From Candidatus Peribacteria bacterium (GTDB lineage: Bacteria; Patescibacteriota; Gracilibacteria; Peribacterales; Peribacteraceae), in the NCBI GenBank assembly GCA_023245765.1, contig JAHFJP010000013.1, forward strand, positions 1 through 34,157: a stretch of 34,157 bases of DNA, written 5' to 3'. Both the position numbers and the translations under genes were made by a program. Positions within the stretch are counted from its first letter, which is position 1, and each line of letters begins with the position of its first letter. Under the pieces are notes generated by a model. The model ran no database searches. It was not told where the DNA came from and was given only the letters and a program-made list of their open reading frames with translations. This document shows positions 9,598-34,157 of the stretch, piece after piece.

Positions 9598-10857
9598 TCA
9601 CGCTGCCACTGTTGTCCGGGAAATCCGGACCATACGGACGAGGGCAGATCCGAGAATGGAGAGCAGCAGGAGGTCGCGAATCGCGATAATCCAGAAGTAG
9701 AACGAATCCGCCGATGACCCGTAGTACCAGGCCAGAAACGCGTCGTAGTAGACGGGATAATCGTACTGCGCCAGCGCGAATGCCGCTGCCATCAGGATTG
9801 CCGCAAACCACCGATGTGAGGTGCGGTACCACGAGATCGAGACCAGCGGCAGTATCGATGCCATCCACCAGACGTAGTGGGGGTTCATCACTTTATTGAA
9901 GTACACGAACGCAAAGAGGAGGAGAAACGGCAGTCCCCAGTCGGTGTATCCCCGCCGCCGGTAGAGCAGCAGGATTGTCCCATAGAGGAGCGCGACGGGC
10001 AGGATCCAGAAATAATTCAGCACGGTATCAGTGACCAGCGGCAGATCCGGTGTCAGTCCGTGGATGCCGTACCCGGCGCCCACGCGGAGCGGGATGCCCG
10101 CGGCTTTCTGTATCAGCGTCAGCACAACTCCCCAGAATCCCTCGAGTCCGACGGGTTTGAGTCCATGCACCCGCATGCTCTCCATAAACCCGGCCAGTGA
10201 TCCGCCGAGGGAAATGAAGAACGCGAGAGGGGCGAGGAAACCGATCGTCCAGAATATCGCCGCTCGTCCAACATCCATCCATCGTCGCTGCCGCATGAGT
10301 TCAAGGAAGAAGAGCGGGAGGAGAATCACCGGATAGAGTTTTGTTCCCGTCGCGAGACCGAGCAGCAGTGCACCTGCGGCCGGGCGATTCTTCCGTAGAC
10401 AATCCCATCCTAGAAGAACAAGAAGGCTGACGAACAACTCAAACCGCAGCAGCAAAAATGGTCCGGCACCGAGAACGATGAGCAGGAAAATCGGCGCCGC
10501 GCGGCGGTATTCCTTCTGGAGGAAGAATGCGACGTGCGCGCAGAGCAGCGCGACGTTCAGCAGCATCGTCGCCGTGAGGAATGCGTCATAATTTTGGATG
10601 TTCGGCACGAGCAAGCCGGTGAAAACGAAGTACCAGAGTGCTCCCGGTTGGTATTCGTCGTACTCCATGCCAGCCCAGCTGCCACTCGTCAAAAAATGTT
10701 GAGCGCGTGAATGGTACGTTCCAACATCCGCGGCAAGATGTCCGTGCCACCACGGATGGCGTGCGAGCCCCAGCAGTACAATCGCTGTCAGGAAGAAGAG
10801 CGACCATGTGATGATTCGCCACTGCGACGCGAGTTGTCGAGTTCGTCGTTGTTCCAT
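9598..10857 (-). CDS. GT87-like polytopic glycosyltransferase (GT-C fold), copy B
   Basis: This is a paralogue of the gene at 5422-6678 with the same succession of motifs: HLAADVGTYHSRAQHF, SWAGMEYDEYQPGALW, GTKLYPVILLP, LKPVGLEGFWG and NPHYVWW, over about ten membrane helices. The acidic residue in the first outer loop is kept (Asp). The open frame continues to 11166 but runs into the divergent ALG10-like gene. The ATG at 10857 (MEQRRTRQL, 419 aa) matches the length of copy A, so I use it. No Shine-Dalgarno or close -10 was found for this start. It probably transfers a sugar from a polyprenyl-phosphate donor on the outer face. Confidence 0.85.
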   Translation of the reverse strand: MEQRRTRQLASQWRIITWSLFFLTAIVLLGLARHPWWHGHLAADVGTYHSRAQHFLTSGSWAGMEYDEYQPGALWYFVFTGLLVPNIQNYDAFLTATMLLNVALLCAHVAFFLQKEYRRAAPIFLLIVLGAGPFLLLRFELFVSLLVLLGWDCLRKNRPAAGALLLGLATGTKLYPVILLPLFFLELMRQRRWMDVGRAAIFWTIGFLAPLAFFISLGGSLAGFMESMRVHGLKPVGLEGFWGVVLTLIQKAAGIPLRVGAGYGIHGLTPDLPLVTDTVLNYFWILPVALLYGTILLLYRRRGYTDWGLPFLLLFAFVYFNKVMNPHYVWWMASILPLVSISWYRTSHRWFAAILMAAAFALAQYDYPVYYDAFLAWYYGSSADSFYFWIIAIRDLLLLSILGSALVRMVRISRTTVAA

Positions 10858-14549: not shown

Positions 14550-14570
14550 ATCCTTCGCTACGCTCAGGAT
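14550..14570. repeat. GAGCGNAGCGA-loop hairpin, single copy
   Basis: ATCCT (14550-14554) and AGGAT (14566-14570) enclose an 11-nt loop reading GAGCGTAGCGA on the minus strand. It belongs to the same family as the array at 17790-17985. It sits between the divergent PMT and ftsH genes. Confidence 0.7.
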
Positions 14571-17745: not shown

Positions 17746-18004
17746 TCGTCTGAGGGCGTGGCGAAAATCTGTTACAATGGCTTTCACTACATGGTTCGCT
17801 TCGCTCACCATGACAGACGAATGTATTTGAAGATCGTCTTCGCTCCGTTCAGACTTTTTCACTTAGGCCCTGAGCGGAGCGAAGGGCCTCTATCTAAAAT
17901 TACCTAACTGTCATCGTGAGCGGAGCGAACGATGACGATGGGAAACGATGAGCAGCCATCCTGAGTCCTTCGCTACCACTCAGGACAGGTTCCAAGAAGG
18001 ATGA
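17746..18004. repeat. Intergenic array of five hairpins with a shared 11-nt loop
   Basis: Five hairpins each enclose exactly 11 nt. A: CATGGT/ACCATG (17790-17812). B: GTCT/AGAC (17836-17854, followed by five T). C: AGGCCCT/AGGGCCT (17865-17889). D: GTCATCGT/ACGATGAC (17910-17936). E: TCCTGAGT/ACTCAGGA (17959-17985). Loops, read on one strand or the other, are GAGCGAAGCGA, GAACGGAGCGA, GAGCGGAGCGA, GAGCGGAGCGA and the divergent GGTAGCGAAGG. Stem sequences differ but stay complementary while the loop is kept. I see no convincing gene; a 38-codon frame at 17791-17907 consists largely of repeat sequence. Confidence 0.8.
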
Positions 18005-31233: not shown

Positions 31234-32940
31234 TCAGGGGAGAGCGTTGAGATAGCACGATTCGCAATAGATATGCATGTCGGTCTCTTCCGGATAACTC
31301 GTCTGCATCGTCTTTCCACAATTGTCACATTTTCCCGACCGGAGTCGCATCGGATTCTTCTCCGCGAATCTCTTCAGGTACCGGCAGTCTACACAACAGT
31401 CGGGGAGGGGAATCCGGCGCTCACGATAGAGGCTGAGTTCCTGCGGCACGATCTTGTAGTTCTTCTTGCACTCTTCGCAGCGGAGAATCTGCGCGGTCAC
31501 GTCATCTTTCACCTCATCAATCTTGTCGGGCACCGCGTAGATCTGATCACGCGACGCCTTGGGTTCATCCTTTTGCCATCGGTAGCCGATAGTCTTCGCT
31601 TTGGCTTGGGAGAGCGGAAAATACTCATTTGCAACAGTGTCATTGTATCCAAAAGGAGAGAGGGAAGCCGGGAAAAATTCCCCCCATGAACCAGTCGCTT
31701 CGCTCCGGTTCAGGGCAAGCGTACTGTCATTTTGCATGTGTTCAATGATCCGCGGCATGAGTTTTTCATATTCCTCTTTTGCATATTCTTTGTTCAGGAT
31801 GCAGTACTTGCCGCGGCGGATGCCGATCGAGCCGAAAATATTTTTTGATGCCGTGATGAACCAGGAGTAGAGGACATTCTGAGACTCCGCGGCACGCAGA
31901 CAGAAGAGGCAGTTGTAGGATCCCGATCCAGATGTCGTCTCATACATGAGCTCGCTATCACGTCCTCCGGAATATTCATCCATCGAGTCATGATGCAGTT
32001 TCACGTCCCAGAGATATTTGGAGTCCGTCGACTTCTGGACGCCGAAGCAGTCATGGCAATTTTTACAGTTGAAGAGATTATCGCCCGTGCTGTCCTCGCA
32101 CCCGACGATCATCAGATTCCGGCGGATCGCCTTCCTCCGGATCCCCGCGTACATCTTCTGCGCTACCTGGACCATCCGCCTCGATCCAAAATCAAACTCC
32201 TTGAGCTTCTTCTCGTACTGCTCTTTCGTCAGTTGCTCATTGAGGAAGCAGTAGCGCTTCTTGCGCAAGTTGCAGCACATAAAACAATCCATGCAGTTAC
32301 GGCAATCAAGCAGAAACGCCGATGTCGCGCAGTCGCTCGAAAAGAAGAGGTAACGACTGTCCTGACAGTTCACGCATTCAACACATTCGTACAGGAAGCT
32401 GCAGTCCGTCACCTGCATGCAGTCGACGCAGTTATTGCTCTTGTTGCCGCGGTACGTGTACATCATCGACTGCGATGAGTGCGTGCGTGAGCAGAGGTAG
32501 CAGTTGCCGCACTCGCGCATGTCGTTGTTGAAGTCGCAGTTTTCCGAGAGTTCGACGCGCAGCGAGGCGAGGGGGACTTCCAGCGACAGTTTTTTGAATT
32601 GATCGAAGAACGATACCGAGAAGTCATACGGGCGTCCGTAGCTCAAGGGATCGAACTTCTCGCTGTACCAATGATCTTTGTCGCAGACTTTGTACGGTGA
32701 ATCCGGAGGGAACACCGAGATGATGTCTTTGCCAGTCACATCGCATTTCCTCCTGTAGAGATGCCGCTCATTGCGAAAACTCATCCGGCGCTGCTGGCGA
32801 CATTCGGGGCAGAGCGTGGGAGGGGGGATCGGGCATTTCTTCTGGCCAAACACCGGTGAAATTTTTTCGTAGAAGATCAAGTCCTCTTTCGCGACCATGA
32901 AGTTCAAGCCGCACTGTGTGCAGGATTTTTCCATATTCAT
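31234..32940 (-). CDS. Cysteine-rich zinc-ribbon protein, paralogue 2
   Basis: About 568 aa with about 40 Cys, mostly as C-x-x-C. Layout: N-terminal ribbon (CTQCGLNF, CPIPPPTLCPEC, RRKCDVTG), a Cys-dense middle (CGNCYLC, ECVECVNCQDSRY, CRNCMDCFMCC), two signature repeats (RYCFLNEQLTKEQYE and KYCILNKEYAKEEYE), and C-terminal ribbons (CEECKKNY, CCVDCRY, CDNCGK, YCESCY). No membrane helix is present. The family is, from memory, common in Patescibacteria under misleading names; its role is unknown and metal binding is inferred. ATG 32940 overlaps the previous stop (ATGA). An 11-residue insertion absent from the paralogue coincides with a GAGCGAAGCGA repeat at 31696-31728. Confidence 0.85.
   Translation of the reverse strand: MNMEKSCTQCGLNFMVAKEDLIFYEKISPVFGQKKCPIPPPTLCPECRQQRRMSFRNERHLYRRKCDVTGKDIISVFPPDSPYKVCDKDHWYSEKFDPLSYGRPYDFSVSFFDQFKKLSLEVPLASLRVELSENCDFNNDMRECGNCYLCSRTHSSQSMMYTYRGNKSNNCVDCMQVTDCSFLYECVECVNCQDSRYLFFSSDCATSAFLLDCRNCMDCFMCCNLRKKRYCFLNEQLTKEQYEKKLKEFDFGSRRMVQVAQKMYAGIRRKAIRRNLMIVGCEDSTGDNLFNCKNCHDCFGVQKSTDSKYLWDVKLHHDSMDEYSGGRDSELMYETTSGSGSYNCLFCLRAAESQNVLYSWFITASKNIFGSIGIRRGKYCILNKEYAKEEYEKLMPRIIEHMQNDSTLALNRSEATGSWGEFFPASLSPFGYNDTVANEYFPLSQAKAKTIGYRWQKDEPKASRDQIYAVPDKIDEVKDDVTAQILRCEECKKNYKIVPQELSLYRERRIPLPDCCVDCRYLKRFAEKNPMRLRSGKCDNCGKTMQTSYPEETDMHIYCESCYLNALP
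31687..31712 (-). repeat. GAGCGAAGCGA hairpin inside a coding sequence
   Basis: TGAACC (31687-31692) and GGTTCA (31707-31712) surround the minus-strand loop GAGCGAAGCGA (31695-31705), the repeat of the array at 17790-17985. Here it is read in frame as N-R-S-E-A and forms part of an insertion relative to the tandem paralogue. Confidence 0.7.
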
Positions 32941-34157
32941 GTCAGGGACTGCGTATAACACGACTCGCAGTAGATGATCTCCGGACGGTCAGGCGCATAT
33001 GTTGTCCGGATCTCCTTCTGACACTTCGTGCACTTTCTGTCGTAGAGCGTGCGGGGATTACGCATCATGCGCCGGTTCGTGTGGCGACAGTAGAAACACA
33101 GTGGCGGCACGGGGGTCTTAAGCTGCCGATAGAGTGCCAGCTCCTGCGCGATGACTTTGTAATTGCGCTTGCAGGCGCGGCAGGCAAGGACCTCGTCCTC
33201 GATCTTCTCCGTGACGGTATCAATCGTCTCGGGCAGTGCGACGGTCTGCGGGCGGTACTCGCGGGCATCAGGATCCCGCCAGGCGTACCCGCGCTGCGTC
33301 GCTTCTTTTTTTGTCAGCGGGAATTGCTCCTGTGCGATCGTTTCGTTGTAGGGGAACATCGCGAACCCGACGGGGTAGAACTCTCCCCATTCACCCGTCT
33401 TGCGCATTGCGTCGATCACCTTTCCGGCAAGCGCTTCGTATTCGTCTTTCGTATATTGTTTGTTGAAGATGCAGTACTGCTTGTGCTGGAGTCCGATGCA
33501 CGCGAAGCAGTTCTTGGAGTGCGGACAGTTCATGCAGTAACTCAGCTGTGCCGAATCGGCCAATGTGAACATGCAGAAGCGCAGGTCGTAGGCGTTGTAG
33601 CCGAGACAGGAGCATTCGTAGAGACGCTCGGCATCACCGCATTCCTGAATGTCCTGTGCCGTCTTGAGCGGATTGAATGCCTGGAAGACGTATCGGCAAT
33701 CCCAGAGATTGCTGGAATCGAAGCAGTGGTGCGCATTCTTGCAATGTGTGAGGTAGTCGCCGGTCGCATTTTCGTTCTGGATGCCGTGCATGAATTTCTG
33801 CGGAAACTTCGCCTTGAAGGTCTCAAAATGCGCGCGCGTCTTCTCGATCGCTCCCGTTGAGCGCAGCTGGCTGGCGACTGCCTCATATTGAGCTTTGGTG
33901 ACCTGTTTGTTCTCAATGCAGTACTCCTTGTTGACCATGTTGCTGCAGAGGATGCAGTTGCGGCAACCGATGCAGCTCTTGAGGAAAAAACTTCCCGAGC
34001 AATTGCTGCAGTCCTGCAGGAATCGCGAGTCGTAGCACTGCAGACAATCAACGCATTCATAGCAGAGCTCGCACTTGCGGACCCGGTAGCAGTCCATGCA
34101 GTTTTTGGAACCGTTGATGCTGTAGCTGTAGTAACAATCCCAGTCTTCGTCGCTGTC
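32937..34157 (-). CDS. Cysteine-rich zinc-ribbon protein, paralogue 1 (5' end clipped)
   Basis: The frame is open to the window edge, so the N-terminus is missing; the ATG at 34097 is internal, since Cys-rich sequence (WDCYYSYSINGSKNCMDC) continues upstream. Visible parts are the Cys-dense core (CELCYECVDCLQCYDSRF, CSNCSGSFFLKSCIGCRNC), two signature repeats (EYCIENKQVTKAQYE and QYCIFNKQYTKDEYE), KTGEWGEFYPVGFAMFPYNE, and C-terminal ribbons (CRACKRNY, CFYCRH, CTKCQK, YCESCY). It aligns with paralogue 2 over its length and is translationally coupled to it by an ATGA overlap. Structural metal binding is likely; function is unknown. Confidence 0.85.
   Translation of the reverse strand, partial: DSDEDWDCYYSYSINGSKNCMDCYRVRKCELCYECVDCLQCYDSRFLQDCSNCSGSFFLKSCIGCRNCILCSNMVNKEYCIENKQVTKAQYEAVASQLRSTGAIEKTRAHFETFKAKFPQKFMHGIQNENATGDYLTHCKNAHHCFDSSNLWDCRYVFQAFNPLKTAQDIQECGDAERLYECSCLGYNAYDLRFCMFTLADSAQLSYCMNCPHSKNCFACIGLQHKQYCIFNKQYTKDEYEALAGKVIDAMRKTGEWGEFYPVGFAMFPYNETIAQEQFPLTKKEATQRGYAWRDPDAREYRPQTVALPETIDTVTEKIEDEVLACRACKRNYKVIAQELALYRQLKTPVPPLCFYCRHTNRRMMRNPRTLYDRKCTKCQKEIRTTYAPDRPEIIYCESCYTQSLT

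Follow-up and report, generated by a model that had tools for sequence, protein, structure and literature searches.

Loop-constant hairpins of a Candidatus Peribacteria genome as long-loop tagged REPs with a probable GIY-YIG nuclease partner

A stretch of 34,157 nt from a Candidatus Peribacteria genome (contig JAHFJP010000013.1, positions 1 to 34,157; hereafter the window) contains hairpins that share an 11-nt loop of sequence GAGCGNAGCGA on stems that vary. Judged by their sequence, these hairpins are a long-loop variant of the REPs tagged with TGTC or CGTC, outside the published families 1 to 4. Their identity as tagged REPs, together with their spreading by a single-domain GIY-YIG nuclease of one particular subfamily (defined by motif A, below), is probably the best explanation of the data as a whole. 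The repeats behave like REPs: they form dimers and clusters of alternating orientation, carry outer stems unique to each locus and are present or absent at a given site depending on the species.

The hairpins are listed in Table 1. A preliminary description counted five motif-loop hairpins in the intergenic cluster. Four of them carry the loop, exact or with one mismatch; the fifth has an unrelated loop that gave no match to GAGCGNAGCGA when both orientations were compared, and is possibly a degenerate or an unrelated member. Taken alone, the second hairpin of the composite folds no better than shuffled sequences. The hairpin at 14550-14570, confirmed here as a motif-loop copy, sits between divergent genes of the PMT-family and FtsH-type. 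The element at 31687-31712, described earlier as a hairpin of the same type, proved to belong to a second family: the motif lies within a 14-nt loop, and the stem is longer and different. This coding copy, near 31695, coincides with an insertion of ~10 residues relative to the adjacent paralogue (32937-34097, minus strand); since the paralogues have diverged, the junction of the insert is inexact. The segment 31234-34097 encodes two adjacent cysteine-rich paralogues without confident Pfam match, one of them with this REP-derived coding insert.

Table 1. Coordinates of the hairpins in the window and of the intergenic region that holds the cluster.
Feature	Coordinates	Strand	Structure and remarks
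Intergenic region with four-hairpin composite (-,-,+,+)	17746..18004	.	Convergent genes on either side
TGTC-tagged hairpin	17790..17815	-	Stem CATGGT/ACCATG (17790-17812, 6 bp); loop GAGCGAAGCGA (17796-17806); TGTC tag at 17812-17815, minus strand; DNA fold z-score -4.5
Second hairpin of the composite	17836..17854	-	Stem GTCT/AGAC (4 bp); loop GAACGGAGCGA (17840-17850), one mismatch
Hairpin	17865..17889	+	Stem AGGCCCT/AGGGCCT (7 bp); loop GAGCGGAGCGA (17872-17882); z-score -2.3
TGTC-tagged hairpin	17909..17936	+	Stem GTCATCGT/ACGATGAC; paired part 17910-17936, 8 bp stem; loop GAGCGGAGCGA (17918-17928); z-score -3.1
Neighbouring hairpin	~17960..17986	.	TCCTGAGT-CCTTCGCTACC-ACTCAGGA; 11-nt loop; weak evidence
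Hairpin	14550..14570	-	Stem ATCCT/AGGAT (5 bp); loop GAGCGTAGCGA (14555-14565)
Member of second stem family	~31684..31715	-	GCCCTGNACCg-GAGCGAAGCGA-ctGGTNCAGGG; within coding region 31234-32961(-)

Five exact GAGCGNAGCGA loops are found in the window. When one mismatch is allowed the number rises to 14, an only moderate excess over the 5.75 expected from shuffles; this is what speaks for a chance or compositional artefact, a reading already refuted by the genome-wide excess, the covariation and the recurrence across phyla described below, and whose probability we consider practically nil. Rfam covariance models run against the window at gathering thresholds gave no match. The -,-,+,+ layout of the cluster recurs in the source genome (G000) at locus L047 (6096-6216), and a related layout occurs at locus L041 (9787-10527). 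In the latter a small ORF (9916-10390) lies between two hairpin composites, its frame ending within a hairpin (it reads ...LRYAQHD...).

A scan of the source genome (1.45 Mb) found 71 exact loops, against 14 for a reversed-pattern control. The 67 copies examined (covering 598 kb) include 35 with four or more perfect pairs immediately next to the loop, as compared with none of the 10 control-pattern sites. With the looser criterion of a stem of at least 5 bp, 38 of 67 copies score versus 2.1% of random positions; 3 of the 10 control-pattern sites also score. In a prior-free scan of perfect hairpins, the motif loop was the commonest among loops longer than 6 nt. Loops are thus not equally frequent with and without complementary flanks: paired copies account for the excess over the control, and the loop-constant pattern noted in the preliminary description stands.

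Stem covariation was measured in 22 first-family copies of the source genome, picked by their left arm (tag) and loop only, the right arm being left free. Pairs 6 to 8 are all complementary in 19 of these copies (shuffle mean 4.5, maximum 11), and C-G, G-C and T-A pairs are all encountered at the three variable inner pairs. The stems therefore remain paired, as had been proposed; to say that they differ completely is too strong, since most first-family copies start with TGTC(A) and keep a constant T-A closing pair, the variation being mainly in the two or three pairs beneath it. Three stem families have the loop in common: TGTCATNNT-loop-ANNAT(GACA), GCCCTGNACCg-loop-ctGGTNCAGGG and CCCTCTCCCTCCG..CC-loop-GGG..CGGAGGGAGAGGG. 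Loci L035, L036 and L040 of the same genome hold CCCTCTCCCTCCG palindromes with the opposite pattern, constant stems and varying loops, some of them with the GAGCGNAGCGA loop.

Three parts make up a full copy: a tag of four bases, TGTC (CGTC elsewhere); a short stem, variable and usually opening with A-T; and a structured apex closed by GA...GA. In DNA, the 11-nt loop is predicted to fold into a 2x2 GA/GA internal loop, two G-C pairs and a GNA triloop, which would make the only variable base, N, the tip. Among DNA mini-hairpins GCGNAGC stands out for its stability, and GA/GA in tandem is able to form sheared pairs; these repeats may adopt both structures.

The repeats are not confined to the source lineage. 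Scanning species genomes with TGTCATNNTGAGCGNAGCGAANNATGACA, a pattern that leaves two variable stem pairs free and hence imposes no selection on their complementarity, returned at least 119 loci in at least 15 phyla as judged by titles, including Chloroflexota, Bacteroidota, Acidobacteriota, Verrucomicrobiota, Bacillota, Gemmatimonadota, Omnitrophota, Myxococcota, Planctomycetota and Pseudomonadota. Both free pairs are complementary in 105 of the 119 among the matches listed (shuffle mean 52, maximum 69). Beyond the tag, 15 of the 119 among the matches listed have extra outer arms of 5-20 bp, unique to the locus. In Hymenobacter, the outer arms are terminator-like hairpins with locus-unique stems and T-tracts, and the element is found at their tip; in other species the orthologous sites are occupied by other hairpins. 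No clean empty sites were found in Hymenobacter, other hairpins having taken the place of the orthologous terminators, and insertion into a pre-existing identical stem is accordingly unsupported there.

The closest relatives of these elements are the CGTC-tagged REPs (Di Nocera, De Gregorio and Rocco 2013, PMC3733652), which include dRS3 of Neisseria and RPE-4 and RPE-6 of Rickettsia. Published families 1 to 4, found in 5 phyla, have stems of 8-9 bp, loops of 4-5 nt and mostly a CCA tail; in one species, CGTC-1 dimers lie within larger palindromes (PMC3733652). Shared features are the TGTC/CGTC tag, the A-T stem start, opposite-orientation dimers or clusters, a mostly intergenic location and many variable stems. 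TGTCA stands at one end of the 22 source-genome copies, a partly circular result as the tag was used in their selection. Pairs 1 to 4 (the tag region) are mostly not conserved as pairs, as is the case for the tag of CGTC REPs, and the tag is also present at the flanks of GIY-YIG genes. The stem starts with A-T in 14 of 22 copies, and the next position is T-A in 15 (C-G in 5). Opposite-orientation dimers or clusters are exemplified by the composites in the window, L041 and L047. In the window copies the stem is shorter than in the published families (~5 bp beyond the tag), the apex is the 11-nt GA-GCGNAGC-GA structure and the end is CT or GACA, which places them as a variant outside families CGTC-1 to -4. 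A further difference is the GIY-YIG partner considered below, none being reported in PMC3733652. The GTAG/GTGG tag and the flanking of Y1 genes that characterize GTAG REPs and RAYT REPtrons are not features of these hairpins.

The preliminary description envisaged a mobile element with a RAYT-like transposase. The kind of element was well chosen; the enzyme was not. Y1/RAYT genes were sought by Pfam in the source genome, in the genomes of 59 relatives and in 19 hairpin-rich genomes. They are present in the source genome and in 33 of the 59 genomes searched, and matched flank repeats also occur at Y1 genes (16/30), as would be expected if a Y1/RAYT transposase mobilised these REPs in the way that GTAG REPs are mobilised and GIY-YIG genes were bystanders. 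Against this, the Y1 flank repeats are other palindromes: at 30 Y1 loci from hairpin-rich genomes the loop was not found once within ~1.5 kb of the gene. Several hairpin-bearing genomes have no Y1 match at all, and the same Y1 negative was obtained for CGTC REPs, which are reported to lack a dedicated transposase and an adjoining Y1 gene (PMC3733652). A Y1/RAYT partner was rejected on finding that no such gene is flanked by these repeats in the genomes searched, and we strongly disfavour this explanation as highly improbable. The sole Y1_Tnp match of the source genome is a RAYT-like ORF (L034, 6892-7620, G000:C12); the palindrome on its flanks is another one, CACGGGTTT..AACCCGTG, with which it forms a separate REP/RAYT pair.

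The tagged palindromes flank genes of another type. A small GIY-YIG ORF was first seen between hairpin pairs in a genome of the same genus (G003), where it is framed by both hairpin types of the window cluster; further GIY-YIG ORFs adjoin hairpins in the source genome and in one Lewinellaceae genome. When hairpin-bearing genomes were searched with Pfam, many single-domain GIY-YIG genes proved to have hairpins on either side; UvrC-type genes had none. When a tagged palindrome is defined structurally (tag GTCAT, complementary ATNNY/RNNAT, GA...GA), matches are found at 24 of the 48 small GIY-YIG genes, at none of the 12 UvrC-type genes and at 1 of 30 Y1 loci (1.45 kb from the gene); a looser regular expression for tagged palindromes also matches at 6 of 30 Y1 loci, a point against the proposed GIY-YIG partnership. 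In genomes selected for hairpins, the density of [CTA]GTCA[TC] palindromes is 2.19/kb within 330 bp of small GIY-YIG genes and 0.07-0.24/kb further out; a separate plasmid sample gives 3.37/kb near the genes versus 0.17-0.26/kb further out. At UvrC-type GIY-YIG genes the density is 0.

The associated single-domain GIY-YIG subfamily is defined by motif A (AIxxEKxxKxW), written after the positives had been seen. Where loci were sampled without regard to hairpins, a tagged palindrome lies within ~330 bp of 20 of 23 motif-A genes, on both sides in 15 cases, compared with 3 of 47 other small GIY-YIG genes from the same unselected samples (Fisher p ~1.6e-11, a descriptive value only, given that the motif was defined after inspection and that close relatives occur among the plasmid matches). 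Some motif-A genes have no recognisable repeat. The plasmid sample was drawn with the motif-A query rather than by hairpins and includes near relatives (several Shinella, Sphingobium and Rhizobiaceae); in most of its GIY-YIG matches, classical CGTC palindromes lie on both sides of the gene. The hosts are Rhizobium, Shinella, Neorhizobium, Sinorhizobium (GTCATCCTCGGGCTTGACCCGAGGATCCA and relatives), Azospirillum, Aeromonas, Sphingobium, Planktothrix and Spirosoma. Sampling by phylum and Pfam score instead, in two more sets of genes, yielded few positives (3/30 and 6/29). In the first set, 30 small GIY-YIG genes of the window's own phylum taken by Pfam score alone, the association is nearly absent because most genes there belong to other subfamilies. 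A universal link to all small GIY-YIG genes is ruled out by the two phylum and Pfam-score samples, hence the split into protein subfamilies. The active-site columns Y, Y, G, R, H and E are ~98% conserved across 62 proteins, in keeping with the GIY...YIG tyrosines and the catalytic arginine and glutamate of GIY-YIG nucleases.

One motif-A GIY-YIG gene was identified in the source genome (G000:C26:162-380), with a TGTCATTCT...AGAATGAC tagged palindrome just downstream. The gene lies apart from the window repeats, and the apex of its palindrome is unlike theirs. The remoteness of the gene, the recurrence of composites in the source genome and the framing of the G003 GIY-YIG gene by the same hairpin types lead us to read the window cluster as a non-autonomous composite.

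Other GIY-YIG loci deserve mention in their own right. On a Planktothrix plasmid (NZ_LR882964, L405), a palindrome-flanked GIY-YIG gene has an MmeI-type restriction gene on one side and drmA of a DISARM locus on the other. Hairpins flanking GIY-YIG genes in genomes G001 (L347 and L365) and G002 (L350) combine a constant base (GTCATCCCGAGTAG / GTAACGAGGGAT) and a constant GGA tip with unique middle stems, and constitute a second loop-constant, stem-variable family. In an Omnitrophota genome (L386), a GIY-YIG gene of the KTTKG-type has the palindrome GCCCCGCACC/GGTGCGGGGC upstream; the stem is identical to a family-2 stem of the source genome and the loop is different.

Enrichment near the genes bears on the possibility that the palindromes are selected as transcription terminators or mRNA 3'-end structures, GIY-YIG genes simply gathering in palindrome-rich intergenic regions. 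The position of the window cluster between convergent genes fits this interpretation, as do the Hymenobacter elements placed at the tips of terminator-like hairpins, with different hairpins at orthologous sites. Yet copies are also found in a divergent intergenic region (14555) and in a coding region (31695), palindrome density falls about ten-fold or more away from GIY-YIG genes, and other small GIY-YIG genes are rarely flanked (the 3 of 47 above). Termination also leaves unexplained why tag and apex are constant across phyla and why the repeats to either side of a nuclease gene match. We regard it as a distinctly unlikely primary explanation; the repeats may have a host role alongside mobility.

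Nuclease and repeat are also matched to each other. Upstream and downstream flanks have a repeat in common at 26 of 46 small GIY-YIG loci, versus 2.3% of mismatched pairs. Own flanks match better than the flanks of same-genome paralogues in 19 of 27 cases (median score 22.5 vs 10.5), and in one Mucilaginibacter genome three GIY-YIG genes are accompanied by three types of repeat. Distances between nucleases are correlated with those between their repeats (Mantel r 0.41, p 2e-4), host relatedness contributing to this value. In Azospirillum lipoferum a GIY-YIG gene, with a palindrome dimer on each side, lies between sufB and sufC; in the four relatives inspected (three at ~95-97% identity) the same interval is a short spacer. 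No clean empty sites were found within the source genus, whose genomes are too diverged (~80% identity in genes).

GIY-YIG enzymes are classical homing endonucleases. The nuclease could thus be a homing-type passenger for which the palindrome is only the target site, the palindromes themselves spreading through replication errors such as template switching in hairpins. Consistent with this are the outer arms reported above, which would result if the element inserted into an existing palindrome or if a flank were copied in inverted form, and the nesting of CGTC-1 dimers in larger palindromes. What template switching alone fails to explain is why one tag and apex occur in many phyla and why the type of repeat goes with the nuclease paralogue, and we deem a passenger role unlikely.

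Under the reading we prefer, in which the nuclease spreads the repeats, the motif-A enzyme would bind the tagged hairpin and make strand breaks there. Repair of the breaks would copy and spread the palindromes and, more rarely, the palindrome-flanked nuclease gene, the stems being free to drift as long as both arms stay complementary. The enzyme acting on the window copies would be encoded elsewhere in the genome, G000:C26:162-380 being the candidate. Chances seem about even that TGTC/CGTC palindromes and motif-A nucleases make up an unrecognised class of bacterial mobile element, a REPtron lacking transposase, integrase and reverse transcriptase, whose enzyme would read the tag and the hairpin apex (GA/GA with a GNA tip; tips of 4-5 nt elsewhere) and not the stem.

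The arrangement resembles the REPtrons formed by GTAG REPs and RAYT (PMC2817692, PMC3733652) in that palindromes flank the gene of a single-domain DNA-cutting enzyme, each enzyme having its own variant; the tag differs, as do the fold and chemistry of the enzyme (GIY-YIG here, HUH-Y1 there). The minimal GIY-YIG domain (Pfam PF01541) is shared with free-standing homing endonucleases and with UPF0213 proteins (1ZG2, 1YWL), structure 1ZG2 being matched at E 3e-6; unlike the genes described here, these are not known to have flanking palindromic repeats. The literature searched yielded no function for UPF0213 proteins. Fungal mitochondria harbor double-hairpin elements and GC clusters, which are small mobile palindromes in genomes that also have GIY-YIG genes and in this respect resemble the present elements. 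Searches for the loop sequence or its frequent peptide readings, and for GIY-YIG together with REP, RAYT, dRS3 or UPF0213, retrieved nothing relevant; the link between GIY-YIG genes and these repeats appears new within this literature, most subscription papers and all preprints falling outside it.

CGTC REPs are a large superfamily, known since at least 2013, for which the mobilising enzyme was not found (PMC3733652). The motif-A GIY-YIG type may be the long-missing enzyme partner of this repeat class, and a subfamily-specific partner with matching flanks makes the question of the mobilising enzyme directly testable. If true, the proposal would account for repeats that abound in many genomes, dRS3 of Neisseria and the palindromes of alphaproteobacteria among them, and would reveal a further mode of mobility, one that relies on a minimal nuclease and parallels RAYT with an unrelated enzyme.
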